Under the pieces are notes generated by a model. The model saw only the letters and a list, made by a program, of their open reading frames with translations. It made no database searches and was not told the origin of the DNA. A stretch of 64,000 nucleotides of DNA, from positions 62,001 through 126,000 of the forward strand of contig NZ_JABEQF010000008.1 of NCBI RefSeq assembly GCF_014174355.1, written 5' to 3'. Shown piece after piece: positions 9,847-17,810 of this stretch (its first letter is position 1; every line of letters starts with the position of its first letter). Both the position numbers and the translations under genes were made by a program. The stretch comes from Gluconacetobacter azotocaptans. GTDB taxonomy: Bacteria; Pseudomonadota; Alphaproteobacteria; Acetobacterales; Acetobacteraceae.

Positions 9847-11796
9847 ATGGCTTCTTCTGATATCAACGTGTTTTCCCTGGCTACCGCGATGCGGGACGGG
9901 CGTCGCGAAGTTGAGATGAGCCTGTCCGACTATCTCGAATCCTGCCGGACGGACCCGTCGTGCTACGCGACGGCGGCAGAACGCATGCTCAAGGCGATCG
10001 GCGAGCCGCGCAGCGTCGATACCTCCCGCGATCCCCGCCTGTCGCGCATCTTCATGAACCGTACGTTGCGGATCTATCCGGCGTTCTCGGACTTCTTCGG
10101 CATGGAGGAGACGATCGAGCAGATCGTCGGCTTCTTCCGCCACGCCGCCCAGGGCCTGGAGGAGCGCAAGCAGATCCTCTACCTGCTCGGCCCCGTCGGC
10201 GGCGGCAAATCGTCGTTGGGCGAACGGCTGAAGGCCCTGATGGAAAAGGAGCCGATCTATGCCCTGAAGGCCGGGCGGCATATCAGTCCGGTGTTCGAAA
10301 GCCCGCTGGGGCTGTTCGATCCGGATCGCATGGCCGACGCCCTGGAAGGGCGTTACGGCATCCCCCGCCGCCTGCTGACCGGTATCGCAAGCCCCTGGGC
10401 GCTGAAGCGGCTGGAGGAGTTCGACGGCGACCTGTCGCGCTTCACGGTGGTCAAGCTTCATCCCTCGCGGCTGCGGCAGATCGCCATCGCCAAGACCGAA
10501 CCGGGCGACGACAACAACCAGGACGTCTCGGCACTGGTCGGCAAGGTCGATATCCGGCAGTTGGAGCATTACAGCCAGAACGATTCCGATGCCTACAGCT
10601 TCTCGGGCGGGTTGAACCGCGCGAACCAGGGGCTGCTGGAATTCGTCGAAATGTTCAAGGCGCCGATCAAGATGCTGCATCCGCTGCTGACGGCGACGCA
10701 GGAAGGCAATTACGTGGGCACCGAGAATATCGGCGGCATCCCGTTTACCGGCGTGATCCTGGCCCATTCCAACGAGGCCGAGTGGCAGACCTTCCGCAAC
10801 AACCGCACCAACGAGGCCTTCCTGGACCGCGTGTGCGTCATCAAGGTGCCGTACTGCCTGCGCGTGACCGAGGAGACCAAGATCTATGAGAAGCTGGTCC
10901 AGTCCTCCAGCCTGTCGGAGGCGCCGTGCGCCCCCAACACGCTGGAAATGCTGGCGCGCTTCGCCGTCCTGTCGCGGCTGAAGCCGCATCCGAACTCGAC
11001 GCAGTTCGCCAAGATGCGGGTCTATGACGGCGAGAATATCCGCGAGACCGACCCCAAGGCGCGAACCATGCAGGAATATCGCGACGCGGCCGGGGTGGAC
11101 GAGGGGATGGAAGGGATTTCCACCCGCTTTGCCTACAAGGTGCTGTCGGCGACCTTCAATCACGATTCGAACGAGATTTCGGCCGATCCCGTGCATTTGA
11201 TGTATGTGCTGGAGCACGCGATCCGGCGCGAGCAGTTCCCGCCCGAGGTCGAGGCCACATACCTGGCGACCCTGAAATCGGAACTGGCGGGGCGCTATGC
11301 CGAATACCTGGGGCACGAGATCCAGAAGGCCTATCTGGAGAGCTACAACGATTACGGCCAGAACCTGTTCGATCGCTATCTGGATTACGCCGACGCCTGG
11401 ATCGAGGACCAGGATTTCAAGGACCCCGATACCGGCCAGATGCTGAACCGGGAATTGCTGAATGCCGAGCTGACCAAGATCGAGAAGCCGGCCGGGATCG
11501 CCAACCCCAAGGATTTCCGCAACGAGGTCGTGAAGTTCTCGCTGCGCGCCCGGGCCGGCAATGGCGGGCGGAACCCGTCGTGGACGTCGTACGAGAAGAT
11601 CCGCGACGTCATCGAGAAACGGATGTTCAGCCAGGTCGAGGACCTGCTGCCGGTCATCAGCTTCGGGTCGAAGAAGGATGGCGAAACCGAACGCAAGCAC
11701 GACGAGTTCGTCGAGCGGATGGCGTCGCGCGGGTACACGGAACGACAGGTCCGCAGGCTCGTTGAATGGTACATGCGCGTGAAGCAGTCCGCCTGA
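9847..11796 (+). CDS. prkA: PrkA family serine protein kinase / AAA+ protein (YeaG)
   Basis: A 649-residue protein of the PrkA/YeaG family. The N-terminal AAA-like domain has a P-loop GPVGGGKSS at residues 115-123, followed by the long PrkA-specific segment (SGGLNRANQGLLEFVEMFK, then LLTATQEGNY). The C-terminal PrkA kinase domain covers roughly the last 250 residues. In enterobacteria YeaG works with YeaH in nutrient-stress survival; recent work on relatives suggests AAA+ protease activity rather than, or as well as, kinase activity. It is the first gene of a three-gene set with DUF444 and SpoVR. ATG 9847 is the only start with a nearby GGAG. Confidence 0.94.
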   Translation: MASSDINVFSLATAMRDGRREVEMSLSDYLESCRTDPSCYATAAERMLKAIGEPRSVDTSRDPRLSRIFMNRTLRIYPAFSDFFGMEETIEQIVGFFRHAAQGLEERKQILYLLGPVGGGKSSLGERLKALMEKEPIYALKAGRHISPVFESPLGLFDPDRMADALEGRYGIPRRLLTGIASPWALKRLEEFDGDLSRFTVVKLHPSRLRQIAIAKTEPGDDNNQDVSALVGKVDIRQLEHYSQNDSDAYSFSGGLNRANQGLLEFVEMFKAPIKMLHPLLTATQEGNYVGTENIGGIPFTGVILAHSNEAEWQTFRNNRTNEAFLDRVCVIKVPYCLRVTEETKIYEKLVQSSSLSEAPCAPNTLEMLARFAVLSRLKPHPNSTQFAKMRVYDGENIRETDPKARTMQEYRDAAGVDEGMEGISTRFAYKVLSATFNHDSNEISADPVHLMYVLEHAIRREQFPPEVEATYLATLKSELAGRYAEYLGHEIQKAYLESYNDYGQNLFDRYLDYADAWIEDQDFKDPDTGQMLNRELLNAELTKIEKPAGIANPKDFRNEVVKFSLRARAGNGGRNPSWTSYEKIRDVIEKRMFSQVEDLLPVISFGSKKDGETERKHDEFVERMASRGYTERQVRRLVEWYMRVKQSA

Positions 11797-11816
11797 AACG
11801 GGAATGGTGTCGCCCA

Positions 11817-13127
11817 GTGGATATTATCGACAGACGTCCCAATCCCCATGGGAAGAATATCGAGAACCGGCGCCGCGTGCTCGAAAGGGCGCGTGGCGCG
11901 GTGCAGAAGGCGGTGCGCGATTCGGTCGCGCGGGGCAAGATTCGCGAAATCGGGCAGGGCAACGCCGTCTCCGTGCCCTCCGACGCGCTGCATGAACCGA
12001 CATTCCATCGCATCTTCACCGAGGGCACGCGCGAAATCGTCCTGACCGGCAATCGCGAATTCTCGCGCGGCGACCGGTTGCAGCGCCCCCCCTCGACGGG
12101 CGGGCCGGGCAATGGCGGCGGCCCGGGGCAGGGGGGCGAGAAAGGAGGGGCCGAGGATTCATTCCGTTTCGTGCTGAGCCGGGATGAGTTCCTGGACCTG
12201 TTCTTCGACGATCTGGAACTGCCGGACCTGATCAAGCGCGAGATCTCGACGACCGAGAACAGCGTGCCCAGCCGCAGCGGCCTGAGTAACGAAGGGGCGC
12301 CGTCGCATCTCGACCTGGGCCGGACGATGCGCCGGTCGGTCGCGCGGCGCATCGGGCTGGGCCGCCCGAAACCCGACGATCTGCGCGAAATCGACGAGCG
12401 CATCGCGGAACTCGAGGCCCGGCGGCCGCTGGACGCCGAGGAGATCGAGGAACTGGAACGCCAGCGCGAGCGGCGGTCGATGATCCGCCAGCGCATGGCG
12501 CGCATCCCCTGGGTCGATCCGGTCGATCTGCGGTTTCGCCGCTATACGATGACGCCCCAGCCGTCGACCCGGGCGGTCATGTTCTGCATCATGGATGTCT
12601 CGGGCTCGATGACCGAACGGATGAAGGATCTGGCGAAGCAGTTCTTCCTGCTGCTGCACGTCTTTCTCGAACGGCGCTACAAGAAGGTCGACATCGTCTT
12701 CATCCGCCACGCCGAAAGCGCCGAGGAAGTGGACGAGGAGACGTTCTTCCACGATCCGCGCACTGGCGGCACCATCGTGTCGTCCGCGCTGGAACTGATG
12801 CGCGGCATCCAGCGCGAACGCTATCCATCGGGGAGCTGGAACATCTATGTCGCGCAGGCGTCGGACGGCGACAACGCATCGTCGGACACCCAGCGGACGG
12901 CGTCGCTGCTGCAGGACGATATCCTGCCGGTGGTCCAGTACTACGCCTATATCGAGGTCTCGGGATCGGGCGCGGTCATTCGCGGGGAAACCGACCTGTG
13001 GCGCAGCTATCGGACGATTGCCGAGCAGAACGGCCATCTTGCGATCCGCCAGGTGGGCGACCGCAAGGAGATCTTCCCCGTGTTTCGCGATCTGTTTTCC
13101 CGCCAGCATGACCATGCGGAGGCCTGA
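11817..13127 (+). CDS. yeaH: YeaH/DUF444 family protein with vWA-like domain
   Basis: A 436-residue partner of PrkA. GTG 11817 gives the conserved family N-terminus VDIIDRRPNPHGKN; the longer open frame from 11766 overlaps prkA. A Gly-rich linker near residues 95-120 precedes the family core. A von Willebrand A-like MIDAS motif DVSGSM starts at Asp260, with a later TGGTIVSSAL threonine site. The stop shares one base with the spoVR ATG. Role: stress and stationary-phase response together with PrkA (family knowledge); the molecular activity is not known. Confidence 0.92.
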   Translation: MDIIDRRPNPHGKNIENRRRVLERARGAVQKAVRDSVARGKIREIGQGNAVSVPSDALHEPTFHRIFTEGTREIVLTGNREFSRGDRLQRPPSTGGPGNGGGPGQGGEKGGAEDSFRFVLSRDEFLDLFFDDLELPDLIKREISTTENSVPSRSGLSNEGAPSHLDLGRTMRRSVARRIGLGRPKPDDLREIDERIAELEARRPLDAEEIEELERQRERRSMIRQRMARIPWVDPVDLRFRRYTMTPQPSTRAVMFCIMDVSGSMTERMKDLAKQFFLLLHVFLERRYKKVDIVFIRHAESAEEVDEETFFHDPRTGGTIVSSALELMRGIQRERYPSGSWNIYVAQASDGDNASSDTQRTASLLQDDILPVVQYYAYIEVSGSGAVIRGETDLWRSYRTIAEQNGHLAIRQVGDRKEIFPVFRDLFSRQHDHAEA

Positions 13128-14683
13128 TGGACCAGATTGTTCCGGGTGGGGCGTCCGCGACGCCGGGCGGCCTGCTCTATTCCGGTAATGACTGGAATTT
13201 CCAGATCATCCGGAACTGCTACGACGCAATCCAGGAGATCGCGGACAAGGAACTCGGCCTGGAGATCTATGCCAACCGGATCGAGATCATCACGTCCGAG
13301 CAGATGCTCGACGTCTACACCTCGCACGGCATGCCGCTGGGCTACAAACACTGGTCGTTCGGCAAGCGCTTCATCGGGCACGAAAGCGCCTATCGGCGCG
13401 GACTGATGGGGCTGGCGTACGAAGTCGTCATCAATTCCGACCCCTGCATCAGCTATCTGATGGAAGAAAATTCGGCGACGATGCAGGCGCTGGTCATCGC
13501 GCACGCGGCGTTCGGCCACAACCATTTCTTCCGCAACAACCGGCTGTTCCGGGAATGGACCGACCCGTCGCAGATCCTGGACTATCTGGAATTCGCCCGG
13601 GGCTTCATCGCGCGGTGCGAAGAACGACATGGACAGCGGGCGGTGGAACGCATCCTCGATGCTGCCCACGCCCTGCAGAACCAGGGGGTCCACCGTCATT
13701 CCGGCGCACGCAAGCTGGACCTCAAGGCCGAGCAGCAGCGGGCGCGCGCGCGCCGCGAATACGAAGACAGCATGTTCAACGATCTGTGGCGGACCCTGCC
13801 GTCCGACGTGGCAGGCGAGAAGGACGGCCTGCAGGATTCCGCGACCCGGCGGCGGTTGGGCCTGCCCGAGGAAAATCTGCTCTATTTCCTGGAAAAGAAC
13901 GCCCCCCGCCTGGCACCGTGGGAGCGGGAGATCATTCGCATCGTTCGGATGGTGGCGCAGTATTTCTACCCGCAGCCCCAGGTCAAGATGATGAACGAGG
14001 GCTGCGCCACCTGGGTCCATGCCTACATCATGCGCCGCCTGCACGAACTTGGGCGGATCGACGACGCCGCGTATCTGGAAGTCATCCATTCCACGTCGAA
14101 CGTCATCAACCAGCCCGGCTTCGAGGCGGGCGGCGGGCCATCCTTCAATCCCTACGCATTGGGCCATGCGATGATGACCGACATCGCCCGGATATGCGTG
14201 GAACCCTCCGATGAGGATCGGCGCTGGTTTCCCGACATTGCCGGCAATGGCGATCCGGTCGGCACCCTGCGGCACGCCTGGGCCGAGTATCGGGACGAGA
14301 GCTTCATCCAGCAATTCCTGTCGCCCAAGGTGATCCGGGATTTTCGCATGTTCCGGCTGCGTGACGACACCACCCAGCCCTATCTGCTGGTCGATGCCAT
14401 TCATGACGAGGCCGGTTACCGGGATATCCGTCGCAGCGTGGCCCTGACCTACGATCCGGGGACATTCTATACGGAAATCGAGATCGTCGATGTCGACCTG
14501 CTGGGCGACCGGACCCTGGTTCTGGAACATCGCAGCCGGAAGGGGCAGATGCTGCAACCCAGCGACGCCCGACAGACGTTGGATTACCTTGTGACATTAT
14601 GGGGTTACGGTGTGGTTTTGAAGGAAATCGACAGCCAGACCGGCGAAGTCGTCACCACGCATGCGGTCAATCCGCCCGGTTAG
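13127..14683 (+). CDS. spoVR: SpoVR family protein (YcgB)
   Basis: A 518-residue cytoplasmic protein of the SpoVR/YcgB family, with typical blocks YSGNDWNFQIIRNCYDA near the start, HAAFGHNHFFRNN (about 126-138) and NEGCATWVHAYIM near 290. In Bacillus SpoVR affects spore cortex formation, but in Proteobacteria it travels with prkA-yeaH and is linked to stationary-phase and stress programmes; biochemical function is unknown. It is translationally coupled to yeaH (one-base overlap) and ends the operon; two hairpins follow at 14706 and 14786. Confidence 0.93.
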   Translation: MDQIVPGGASATPGGLLYSGNDWNFQIIRNCYDAIQEIADKELGLEIYANRIEIITSEQMLDVYTSHGMPLGYKHWSFGKRFIGHESAYRRGLMGLAYEVVINSDPCISYLMEENSATMQALVIAHAAFGHNHFFRNNRLFREWTDPSQILDYLEFARGFIARCEERHGQRAVERILDAAHALQNQGVHRHSGARKLDLKAEQQRARARREYEDSMFNDLWRTLPSDVAGEKDGLQDSATRRRLGLPEENLLYFLEKNAPRLAPWEREIIRIVRMVAQYFYPQPQVKMMNEGCATWVHAYIMRRLHELGRIDDAAYLEVIHSTSNVINQPGFEAGGGPSFNPYALGHAMMTDIARICVEPSDEDRRWFPDIAGNGDPVGTLRHAWAEYRDESFIQQFLSPKVIRDFRMFRLRDDTTQPYLLVDAIHDEAGYRDIRRSVALTYDPGTFYTEIEIVDVDLLGDRTLVLEHRSRKGQMLQPSDARQTLDYLVTLWGYGVVLKEIDSQTGEVVTTHAVNPPG

Positions 14684-14993: not shown

Positions 14994-16202
14994 ATGGCGG
15001 TTGAACGACGTCGTGGCATGGCTCGCGCTCTGGCCGCTCCCCTGACGCTTCTGGGCGCCCTGTCCGTTCTTGCCGCCGGGCCGGTCCGCGCGGCGGATCC
15101 TATCCTGCAGACTGAAGAAAGCGACATCGTGAAGCTTCCGCCCGGCGGTCCGCATCGGATCCTGGTGGAAGATGCCGTATACCGTCACAACAAGGACGGG
15201 CGCGTCTATGTGGTCGATACCGACAGCGGCAAGCTGCTGGGCATGGTCCAGGCCGCCTATAACGCCAATGTCGCCGCCGACCCGTCCGGCCGGGCGTTCT
15301 ACGTCGCCGAAACGACGTGGGAGCGTGGCAATCGCGGCAAGCGGCATGACATGCTGGCGGCCTACGACCCCCAGACGCTCGAACCGACGATGGACATCGA
15401 CCTGCCAAGTCGTGCCCTGGTGACGCCCAAGAAGCCCGACCTGGCGGTCGGCGCCGACGGGCATTACGTCTATGTCTACGACACCAGCCCGACCAATTCG
15501 GTTCATGTGGTGGATACCGCGAAGAAGGCGGTGGTGCAGACCGTCGACGTTCCGGGCTGCGCGCTGATCTATCCGTGGGGGACATCGGGCTTTTCGTCGG
15601 TCTGCGGCGACGGTTCGCTGGCCAACGTCAGCCTCGACGCATCGGCCAAGCCCACCGTTACCCATTCCGCGCCGTTCTTCGTGCCTGACCAGGACCCGGT
15701 CTTCGAGCATAGTCCGGGCGTTGCGGCCAGCGGACATGTCTGGTTCGTCTCCTTCAGCGGCCTTGTCTACGACACGGTGCTGGACAGCGACGCGCGAATC
15801 AGCAAGCCCTGGTCCCTCCAGGAAGCCGCGGGCCTGAAGCCTGCGTCCGACGCCCATGCGCCGTTCGATGTCACCTGGCGTCCGGGCGGCTGGCAGCTGG
15901 CGGCGGTGCGTGCCCGGGATTCGCACCTGTTCATCCTGATGCACAACGGCACGTTCTGGACGCACAAGGAGCCGGGGACCGAGTTGTGGGAAGTCGACCT
16001 GACGACCCGCAAGCTGGTGCGCCGCATTCACCTGGCCACCCCCAGCACCATGGTCGGCGTCACCCAGGACGCGGCGTCGCGCATCTTCCTGACCGACGAG
16101 GCCGGCGATCTGAACGTCCTGGATGGTGCCACCGGCAAGATGGTGCGGCCGATCAGGAAACTGGGCGAATCGCTGATCTTCACGGTCGCGCCGGGGGAAT
16201 GA
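14994..16202 (+). CDS. TTQ-dependent amine dehydrogenase, large (heavy) subunit
   Basis: A 402-residue periplasmic beta-propeller subunit of the methylamine/aromatic amine dehydrogenase family (MauB/AauB-like). A signal peptide (RRRGMARALAAPLTLLGALS, cleavage near VRAAD) directs export. Repeated propeller blades are visible as YVVDTDSGKLLGMV, PHRILVEDAVY, VHVVDTAKKAVVQTV and ELWEVDLTTRKLV. The HAPFDVTWRPGGWQ and HNGTFWTHKEPGTE blocks match the family. It binds the TTQ-bearing small subunit encoded next. Sequence alone does not separate methylamine from aromatic amine specificity. RBS AGGCGGG is just upstream. Confidence 0.88.
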   Translation: MAVERRRGMARALAAPLTLLGALSVLAAGPVRAADPILQTEESDIVKLPPGGPHRILVEDAVYRHNKDGRVYVVDTDSGKLLGMVQAAYNANVAADPSGRAFYVAETTWERGNRGKRHDMLAAYDPQTLEPTMDIDLPSRALVTPKKPDLAVGADGHYVYVYDTSPTNSVHVVDTAKKAVVQTVDVPGCALIYPWGTSGFSSVCGDGSLANVSLDASAKPTVTHSAPFFVPDQDPVFEHSPGVAASGHVWFVSFSGLVYDTVLDSDARISKPWSLQEAAGLKPASDAHAPFDVTWRPGGWQLAAVRARDSHLFILMHNGTFWTHKEPGTELWEVDLTTRKLVRRIHLATPSTMVGVTQDAASRIFLTDEAGDLNVLDGATGKMVRPIRKLGESLIFTVAPGE

Positions 16203-16300
16203 TGGCGATGAGACGAAACATGACCGGCCGCCCGTCCCCCGCGACGGGCGTCGACCGCACCCTTGCCCGCATGATGGAGGCATTTCATGGCCAATCCTGA
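16199..16300 (+). CDS. Possible 33-residue coupling peptide between the two amine dehydrogenase subunit genes
   Basis: An ATG inside the large-subunit stop (ATGA at 16199-16202) opens a 33-codon frame (MMAMRRNMTGRPS at the start, EAFHGQS at the end). It ends 14 bases inside the small-subunit gene and fills the otherwise empty gap between the two subunit genes. It has no recognisable domain. It may be translated only to carry ribosomes across the gap, or may not be translated at all. In known mau/aau clusters this position holds mauE and mauD. Confidence 0.25.
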   Translation: MMAMRRNMTGRPSPATGVDRTLARMMEAFHGQS

Positions 16301-16883
16301 AAATGGGGCCAATCCTGAAACCGGACGAGGCGCGACGATGGGCCGCGATGGTCTTGACCGCATGGCCGAACGGCTGACCCGCCGCCTGGCCGGACGATCG
16401 TCGCGGCGCAGCGCGCTGGCGCGGCTGGGGGCGTGGGCGGCCGCGATCCCGGCTTTCCCGGTACTGCCCGTCTGGCGCGGCGATGCCCGCGCGGCCACCT
16501 CCACGGCCCGCGCCCCGTCACCCTTTTCCGCCAAGGCGCAGGTCAAGGACGACACCAAGTGCGATTACTGGCGGTATTGTGCGATCGACGGCAATCTGTG
16601 CACGACCTGCGGCGGTGGCGTTCATAGCTGTCCGCCGGGCACCCGGCCGTCGCCGACATCGTGGATCGGCACATGCTTCAACCCGCAGGATCGCCGATCG
16701 TACCTGATTGCCTATCGCGACTGCTGTGGACAGGATGCCTGCAACGAGCAGACCTGCCTGGGTACGGATGGCGATCTGCCGACCTACCGTCCGCAGGCCA
16801 ATAACGACATCATCTGGTGTTTCGGAACGGGCTCGCTTCTCTATAATTGTTCGACTGCCGTAATCGTAGGAACCGCCGAATGA
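16287..16883 (+). CDS. TTQ-dependent amine dehydrogenase, small (light) subunit
   Basis: A 198-residue precursor of the catalytic subunit (MauA/AauA-like). Trp126 (SPTSWIGTC) and Trp177 (NDIIWCFG) align with the two tryptophans that crosslink into the TTQ cofactor. Asp101 (CAIDG) and Asp145 (AYRDCC) align with Asp32 and Asp76 of the Paracoccus enzyme. The mature part has 12 cysteines, as needed for six disulfides. The long leader has a twin-arginine site (SSRRSALARLG, Arg40-Arg41). GGAGG lies 6 bases before ATG 16287, which settles the start. An 18-bp in-frame duplication encodes ANPENG/ANPETG in the leader. The stop overlaps the first cytochrome gene. Confidence 0.92.
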   Translation: MANPENGANPETGRGATMGRDGLDRMAERLTRRLAGRSSRRSALARLGAWAAAIPAFPVLPVWRGDARAATSTARAPSPFSAKAQVKDDTKCDYWRYCAIDGNLCTTCGGGVHSCPPGTRPSPTSWIGTCFNPQDRRSYLIAYRDCCGQDACNEQTCLGTDGDLPTYRPQANNDIIWCFGTGSLLYNCSTAVIVGTAE

Positions 16884-17335
16884 AGAAGATCCTGACCCTG
16901 GCCCTGTGTCTTGCCGGGGCAACGCCCGCCTTTGCCGCGCCTGACGGAATGGCCCTCTATGGCGCCAATTGCGGCATCTGCCATCAGGGCGGCGGCGTGG
17001 GCGCGCCGGGACAATTCCCGCCGCTGGCCAACCGTATCGACAAGATCGCGTCGACGCCGGAAGGCAAGAAGTATGTGACCCAGGTGCTGATCAACGGCCT
17101 GGCCGGGTCGATCCAGGCGGGGGGCGCGACCTATGTCGGCTTCATGCCCAGCTTCAAGAGCCTGCCCGACGATCAGATCGCGGCGATCCTGACCTATCTG
17201 TCGTCGCTGGGTTCGACCAAGCCGGCCCCGGTCTTCACGGCGGCCGACCTGGCTGCCTCGCGTGCGGCGCCGATGCCGTCGTCGGCCGTCGCCGCCGCCA
17301 GGAAGGCCCTGAATGCGGCACATCCGCTTCCCTAA
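16880..17335 (+). CDS. Small c-type cytochrome of the amine dehydrogenase operon (first)
   Basis: A 151-residue periplasmic monohaem cytochrome c. The signal peptide is MKKILTLALCLAGATPAFAA, the haem site CGICH is at about residues 32-36, and the GFMPSF segment supplies the probable axial methionine. The ATG overlaps the small-subunit stop (ATGA, 16880-16883), so it is made with the enzyme and is the likely electron acceptor for the reduced TTQ. This is inference from position: amicyanin or azurin does this job in known systems, and no cupredoxin gene is here. Confidence 0.85.
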   Translation: MKKILTLALCLAGATPAFAAPDGMALYGANCGICHQGGGVGAPGQFPPLANRIDKIASTPEGKKYVTQVLINGLAGSIQAGGATYVGFMPSFKSLPDDQIAAILTYLSSLGSTKPAPVFTAADLAASRAAPMPSSAVAAARKALNAAHPLP

Positions 17336-17810
17336 GGTCGCGCGGGCCGCAGGGTCGGCTGTCGTTCTTCTGGCGCTGGCCGGCCTCGTCGCATCGCCGC
17401 GGCCGGCCAGCGCCCTGGACGGAACGCGCACGACCTATCTGGTCAAATGCGGCGGATGCCACGGGATCGAGGGACTGTCCGGACAGACCTATATCCCGGT
17501 GCTGCGCGATCGCGTGGGCAGCCTGACGTGCACGCCGGAGGGCCGGTCCTATCTGGTCCAGGTACCGGGCGTGTCGATGTCGCTGATCCGCGATGACGCG
17601 GAGATGGCGCGGGTGCTGAACTTCGTCGTGTTCGACCTCGGTGGCTCAAGCACACCGAAGGGCACCCGTCCCTATACCGCCGAGGAGGTGCACGCCCTTC
17701 GCAGCCATCCGCTGCGGGCGACCGACCTGCCGGAGTTGCGGGCGGGGGTCTGGGGCCGCGCGCTTACGGCCTGCGCTGCGCAGGCCGGTCATGCGGCCGG
17801 CGCCTATTGA
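17313..17810 (+). CDS. Small c-type cytochrome of the amine dehydrogenase operon (second)
   Basis: A 165-residue periplasmic monohaem cytochrome c with a signal peptide (VARAAGSAVVLLALAGLVA) and haem site CGGCH (about residues 46-50). GVSMSL may provide the axial Met. Two further cysteines (in SLTCTPEG and LTACAAQ) could form a disulfide. It overlaps the first cytochrome gene by 23 bases in another frame, an arrangement that suggests coupled expression. Probably the next carrier towards the terminal oxidase, though it could be an alternative acceptor. Confidence 0.8.
   Translation: MRHIRFPKVARAAGSAVVLLALAGLVASPRPASALDGTRTTYLVKCGGCHGIEGLSGQTYIPVLRDRVGSLTCTPEGRSYLVQVPGVSMSLIRDDAEMARVLNFVVFDLGGSSTPKGTRPYTAEEVHALRSHPLRATDLPELRAGVWGRALTACAAQAGHAAGAY

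Follow-up and report, generated by a model that had tools for sequence, protein, structure and literature searches.

The closest described relatives of the locus examined here are two gene clusters for amine dehydrogenases with the cofactor tryptophan tryptophylquinone (TTQ): the mau cluster of methylamine dehydrogenase (MADH), as in Paracoccus denitrificans (L114) and Methylobacterium (L122), and the aau operon of the aromatic amine dehydrogenase (AADH) type, as on a Pseudomonas aeruginosa plasmid (L115). MauE and MauD function in disulfide formation in the small subunit. The mau cluster has amicyanin after mauA and includes mauF, mauJ, mauG, mauM and mauN; the P. aeruginosa operon, with the order aauB-mauE-mauD-aauA-cyt-cyt, has none of these five genes, and the aau operon of Alcaligenes faecalis (2001) reportedly has no mauG either. 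In the accessible parts of the literature (PMC7876137 among the sources) the dihaem protein MauG is tied to MADH, and the available text of a 2008 report on Methylacidiphilum (PMC2474590) describes a mauBEDA-cytochrome operon with no linked mauG, in a genome that encodes a MauG homologue at another place. Here we analyse a locus in a 64,000-nucleotide stretch of the Gluconacetobacter azotocaptans genome (the window; contig NZ_JABEQF010000008.1, here C8, positions 62,001 to 126,000), in which the genes for the large and small subunits of such an enzyme (mauB and mauA) are followed by two cytochrome genes (cyt1 and cyt2; Table 1). We estimate a probability of about 75% that two things hold jointly for this locus, namely that MauE and MauD would be supplied in trans and that TTQ would be formed independently of MauG.

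The locus encodes an enzyme of known type in a reduced variant of the operon. Both mauB and mauA are intact open reading frames (ORFs), homologous to those of the mau clusters and with the same TTQ residues: in the alignment D101, W126, D145 and W177 of the window MauA fall at the positions of D32, W57, D76 and W108 of the P. denitrificans protein (in what we take to be its numbering), and both TTQ tryptophans and both active-site aspartates are kept. The original prediction, made from the sequence of the window, of two intact subunits with both crosslink tryptophans and the catalytic aspartate was thus confirmed (PF06433, PF02975). Its statement that all 12 cysteines are present was right in number, but they are not the same 12, since only 10 are located at the 12 cysteine columns of P. 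denitrificans; the total in P. aeruginosa AauA is 10. The two cytochrome genes follow directly, as had been predicted, in overlapping frames: the cyt1 start codon overlaps the mauA stop codon (ATGA at 16880-16883) and cyt2 begins at 17313 within the cyt1 frame, which ends at 17335. When mau profiles obtained from sister and annotated loci were run against all ORFs of at least 60 amino acids in the 64 kb (E 1e-5), the only matches were mauB, mauA and the two cytochromes, and no mauE, mauD, mauF, mauG, mauJ, mauM or mauN was detected; the reported absence of mauE, mauD, mauF and mauG near the locus therefore holds for the whole window and extends to mauJ, mauM and mauN.

In its subunits, its cytochrome genes after mauA and its lack of mauF, mauG, mauJ, mauM and mauN the locus is like the aau operon, whereas the aau-type order mauB-mauE-mauD-mauA is broken by the missing mauE and mauD. 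From the mau cluster it differs in having cytochrome genes at the place of amicyanin. The belief that known aau clusters hold mauG did not survive, as the annotated aau-type loci that we examined have none. The window MauA scored just under the MADH cut-off (TIGR02659, 193.9 versus 196.85 bits) and MauB far under it (TIGR02658, 170.5 versus 454 bits). Among PDB matches MauA matched MADH better than AADH (4.5e-53 versus 8.5e-35), and judged by these matches the small subunit is nearer to MADH than to AADH, though the operon is aau-like.

Two further mauA genes were found in the same genome (4.13 Mb in 57 contigs), on contigs C16 and C2, giving three in total. The order is mauB-mauE-mauD-mauA-cyt2 on C16 and mauB-mauD-mauA-cyt2-mauE-mauD on C2, so that mauE is within about 1.5 kb of both sister mauA genes and mauD adjoins both. 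The strong MauE matches in the genome (PF07291, 82.7 and 74 bits) were exactly at these two loci, and two weak matches (27 bits, at the cut-off, and 21.8 bits) were located elsewhere. The C16 small subunit exceeds the MADH cut-off (212.2 versus 196.85 bits), yet there is no mauG beside it. Of the earlier suggestion that maturation genes lie elsewhere in the genome, the part concerning MauE and MauD was thus borne out by C16 and C2; for MauG, no protein of the genome scored above the TIGR03791 cut-off, a weak test (see below), and PF03150 matched four dihaem peroxidase-like proteins.

To this result can be added the distribution of reduced loci among relatives, for which the best 80 of 161 loci from species genomes were taken, all obtained with a query of the mauG-less type. 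In 10/10 Gluconacetobacter loci, which share their synteny, neither mauE nor mauD separates mauB from mauA; measured by longest ORF, the gap is -4 to 84 bp, with no remnant of either gene seen. An Ameyamaea locus (L044) with the same downstream genes has mauE and mauD in the corresponding gap, and the orthologous loci of Asaia, Acetobacter, Gluconobacter and Komagataeibacter are likewise complete. All ten Gluconacetobacter genomes carry two or three mauA genes, and in each a mauE gene is found no more than about 1.5 kb from another mauA. Genomes with a single mauA keep mauE and mauD at the locus in 26/26 cases (21 Acetobacteraceae and 5 sphingomonads). A MauA tree of 64 of the 121 mauA rows groups the window with the 10 Gluconacetobacter rows in a single clade (support 100/99), nested in a clade of 23 rows (100/99) that also includes complete loci; the placement of MADH is unsure because of long branches. 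On this tree the reduced state requires two changes; the other reduced group consists of five C2-type loci from Komagataeibacter and Acetobacter, whose genomes have three mauA genes each, one or two mauE genes and a complete locus. The recurrence of the reduced locus in other Acetobacteraceae, raised as a question by the original prediction, was thus found both throughout the Gluconacetobacter loci and in a separate lineage. Three Komagataeibacter genomes carry an extra mauB-mauA pair with no mauE, mauD, cyt2 or other helper in 13-kb stretches, again with three mauA genes, one mauE and a complete locus per genome. Altogether 20 mauA rows were without mauE, of which 16 were counted as truly reduced after leaving out three cut by contig ends (L033, L077 and L084) and a decayed plasmid copy (L121); in L036 and L039 the second locus runs off the stretch beyond mauB, and the single mauE of each of these genomes is at the complete locus. 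The decayed copy, on a Sphaerotilus plasmid (L121:8926-10049), consists of a mauA-like ORF and cytochrome genes, with a weak mauD match and no match to mauB or mauE. Given that reduced loci occur in multi-locus genomes and that single-mauA genomes are complete, the distribution is consistent with a satellite operon supplied in trans.

The second part of our reading concerns MauG. For 121 mauA genes in 116 stretches we scored cyt2 (at least 90 bits within 2.5 kb) and mauG (at least 100 bits within 6 kb): 113 had cyt2 and no mauG, 8 had mauG and no cyt2, and none had both or neither, although inclusion of the three helper-free Komagataeibacter pairs, which are outside the 121, gives neither gene in 3/124. 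The MADH loci are under-sampled in this set (8/121, all plasmid records with host genomes unsearched) because the query was of the mauG-less type. Genome-wide, no protein above the MauG cut-off of TIGR03791 (444 bits) was found in this genome (best score 166 bits), in 397 genomes of the phylum or in 47 genomes of this operon type; below the cut-off, 38 of the 397 genomes matched at 1e-60, including one with mauA (G234, 213 bits). This model was set aside as a test for MauG, however, given that P. denitrificans MauG itself scores 97 bits, that the P. denitrificans plasmid was unmatched at 1e-40 and that the MauG of Indioceanicola (399 bits) is also below the cut-off. PF03150, used instead, recovered three control MauGs at 153-189 bits. 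A dihaem peroxidase-like protein of this superfamily was present in 50/58 genomes of this operon type and absent in the other eight (G213, G058, G167, G436, G438, G440, G442 and G443), of which G213, G058 and G167 are 100% complete and G058 and G167 are single contigs. From these 8/58 genomes we conclude that this branch probably makes its TTQ without MauG. Operons without mauG were already known, and the absence of the whole superfamily from some genomes of this type is, as far as we have searched, the new point.

This result also bears on the possibility that a MauG-like dihaem protein encoded elsewhere makes TTQ in trans. The G. azotocaptans genome encodes four PF03150 proteins. The column that we take to be that of MauG Tyr294 is occupied by Met in L010 and L011 and by Tyr in L012 and L013; the identity of L012 to P. 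denitrificans MauG is about 35%. The prediction that the enzyme might be matured by another system has support for the TTQ-building step from other genomes, those lacking PF03150, and not from this one with its four such proteins. A haem-ligating Tyr is also predicted for BthA and BthB of Burkholderia in the accessible text of PMC6405878, which argues that this residue is not specific to TTQ building. The L012 and L013 genes (L012:1363-2634 and L013:940-2490) adjoin phosphoesterase-like ORFs, by our own reading, and not mau genes.

Several points weigh against supply in trans and independence from MauG. The sister MauA proteins have 14 cysteines each and the window MauA 12, which could mean that the window enzyme requires help of another kind. 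The small number of losses on the tree means that the Gluconacetobacter species are not independent cases, and the supply in trans is deduced from gene distribution. As 50/58 genomes have a PF03150 protein, the argument for MauG-independence comes from the eight without it, and a completeness figure exists for three of these eight. The present genome, a 57-contig draft (completeness given as 100), itself encodes the MauG-like dihaem proteins L012 and L013 with their Tyr294-column Tyr.

With these points included, we favour the following scheme. The window locus would be a functional satellite operon encoding the third TTQ-type amine dehydrogenase of the genome. Its ancestor would have been a complete mauB-mauE-mauD-mauA-cyt1-cyt2 operon, from which mauE and mauD were lost in the Gluconacetobacter ancestor, a loss presumably tolerated because two paralogous loci supply MauE and MauD in trans. 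The small-subunit precursor would be exported by its twin-arginine-like leader and its disulfides formed by MauE and MauD from the sister loci; TTQ would then arise without MauG, as would be normal throughout this operon type, with cyt2 as the most likely linked component, acting as a carrier or supplying the oxidising haem. Once the enzyme is complete, its electrons would probably exit via cyt1, the probable electron acceptor, in which the Met-Pro loop is kept.

The association of cyt2 with mauA is close. Of the 397 phylum genomes, 12 have a full mauA, and exactly the same 12 gave a strong match to the cyt2 profile, A1 (113-185 bits; next best 50 bits), to which 5 of them had contributed sequences; two genomes with weak PF02975 matches, over 23 positions (G216) and with four internal stops (G241), were left out of the 12. 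These 12 genomes have 16 mauA and 16 cyt2 genes, each cyt2 on the same strand and at most about 1.1 kb downstream. In 44/47 genomes mauA and cyt2 were equally numerous, the exceptions being the three Komagataeibacter genomes with a helper-free pair, which have three mauA and two cyt2, and no cyt2 was found in the MADH-type plasmid records (0/8, at 1e-20). When genes on the same strand were clustered for 40 stretches, mauA was present in 40, mauB in 39, mauE in 38 and a merged cluster in 40, which consisted of mauD and, by our reading, the cytochromes; ORFs in shadow frames and such merging made some clusters uninformative. After the mau and cytochrome genes the next commonest family was a TonB-dependent receptor, encoded near amine dehydrogenase loci in 11/40 stretches (e.g. 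L005:4698-7874).

The cyt2 protein has one CxxCH motif, and hence one haem, in about 165 residues, with no match to PF03150; for the window protein neither Pfam nor NCBIfam gave a match at E 0.001 (best Pfam E 0.15), while some relatives match PF00034 and one (L115) does so above the cut-off. It is c552-like in both profile and fold. A1 matched Thermus thermophilus cytochrome c552 (1c52, 2fwl) at E 2e-26 over two collinear pieces, between which c552 residues 52-73 are skipped; this segment is presumed to hold the axial Met ligand and has almost no counterpart in cyt2. The loop is shortened in all 110 cyt2 proteins considered (three of the 113 ORFs, L031, L034 and L121, have no CxxCH in frame), with an R-to-N spacing of 24-25 in 110/110 as compared with 42-43 in 9/59 cyt1-like ORFs, those measurable by the pattern used. 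The AlphaFold model (predicted local distance difference test score 89.4) gave c552 structures (1dt1 and 1c52) as top Foldseek matches, at a template modelling score of about 0.5-0.6, an E value of only 0.01 and a root-mean-square deviation over 5. Beyond CxxCH, A1 contains no invariant Met, His, Lys or Tyr. At position 89 the 110 proteins have M in 49, H in 21, N in 8, R in 7, F in 6 and S in 5, and at position 80 Tyr is found in 101 and Phe in the other 9; Met89 of the window cyt2 could be a haem ligand, which counts against a bare haem.

On these grounds cyt2 is, as judged from gene linkage, the best linked candidate for a MauG substitute. Like MauG it is a c-type haem protein linked to mauA, an analogy of function that we only propose, and the two differ in that MauG is a dihaem PF03150 protein. 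Tentatively, and with the odds leaning against it, cyt2 may be a second, MauG-unrelated TTQ-building enzyme, derived from c552 and with a single haem, in which removal of the distal-ligand loop would open the haem to oxygen or peroxide; cyt2 would then replace MauG in most amine dehydrogenase operons and MauG would be confined to the MADH branch.

The strongest alternative, to which we give somewhat less than an even chance, is that cyt2 is an electron acceptor only and that TTQ is made autocatalytically or by an unlinked enzyme not resembling MauG, e.g. a flavoprotein monooxygenase. A cyt1-like gene (A1 score 40-90) was found downstream of only 44/112 mauA genes, so cyt2 is often the sole linked cytochrome and may carry the electrons there; Met or His, a possible ligand, is present at position 89 in 70/110 proteins, the residue at position 80 varies between Tyr and Phe, and the three helper-free mauB-mauA pairs have no adjoining cyt2. 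QhpG and LodB are flavoproteins of this kind for cysteine tryptophylquinone, and flavoproteins perform related chemistry in other tryptophylquinone systems according to the available text of PMC7876137. The lack of an invariant distal ligand across the diverse A1 set would, however, be unusual for a pure electron carrier, and no other gene family recurs at the loci to the same degree, the TonB receptor at 11/40 being the next. Synthesis of TTQ by L012 or L013 is in our judgement unlikely: the identity to MauG, the Tyr, the Methylacidiphilum precedent and the 50/58 genomes speak for it, but the eight genomes without the superfamily, two of them single contigs, the Tyr of the Burkholderia proteins and the non-mau neighbours speak against it, and these two proteins were demoted as the MauG of this genome and kept as a rival. 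That the locus is a decaying relic without an active enzyme, as the loss of mauE and mauD and the reduction of the third Komagataeibacter loci to mauB and mauA might suggest, is very improbable given the kept cofactor residues, the presence of the locus in 10/10 Gluconacetobacter species and ratios of non-synonymous to synonymous substitution rates of 0.06-0.38 for all four genes across Gluconacetobacter comparisons (against four orthologues, 0.11-0.17 for mauA and 0.12-0.25 for mauB), which indicate purifying selection.

Table 1. Coordinates of the features of the window locus and of the helper-free mauB-mauA pairs.
Feature	Position	Strand	Evidence
mauB-like large subunit of TTQ amine dehydrogenase	14994..16202	+	PF06433, 157.6 bits
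84-bp gap between mauB and mauA	16203..16286	+	site of mauE and mauD in orthologous loci; no remnant seen
mauA-like small subunit with twin-arginine-like leader	16287..16883	+	PF02975, 172.2 bits; alignment; PDB matches
cyt1, class-I-like monohaem cytochrome c with Met-Pro loop	16880..17335	+	PF00034, 42.3 bits (score from the longer frame, start 16847)
cyt2, monohaem cytochrome, c552-like, distal loop deleted	17313..17810	+	companion of mauA in mauG-less loci
Helper-free mauB-mauA pairs, Komagataeibacter	L207:6387-8145, L208:4854-6613, L209:5022-6789

Directly upstream of the locus are genes for PrkA, DUF444 and SpoVR (window 9847-14683), which are kept in 10/10 Gluconacetobacter loci, and downstream is a nucleoside 2-deoxyribosyltransferase gene on the opposite strand. 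A scan for promoters and terminators gave nothing above shuffled sequence. The C16 locus is followed by rotamase (PF13145) and HupE/UreJ (PF13795) genes (L004:7262-9119), which were considered as maturation genes and dropped, as neither the PpiC nor the HupE/UreJ gene was found at the 80 loci (tblastn, E 1e-4). A second MauD-like paralogue has lost one cysteine, CPIS or CPVS replacing CPxC in 32 of the 34 mauD-like genes that do not immediately precede mauA (e.g. L029:11872-12477) and in L005:9204-9800; this monothiol MauD may be a separate helper.

In the literature searched, in parts and with most subscription journals outside its scope, no proposal was found for a maturase of AADH or of other non-MADH TTQ enzymes. 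The split observed here, mauG or cyt2 and never both in 121 mauA genes, is testable, with genomes free of the MauG superfamily and natural satellite operons at hand. If cyt2 were the maturase, one haem would do a job thought to need two.

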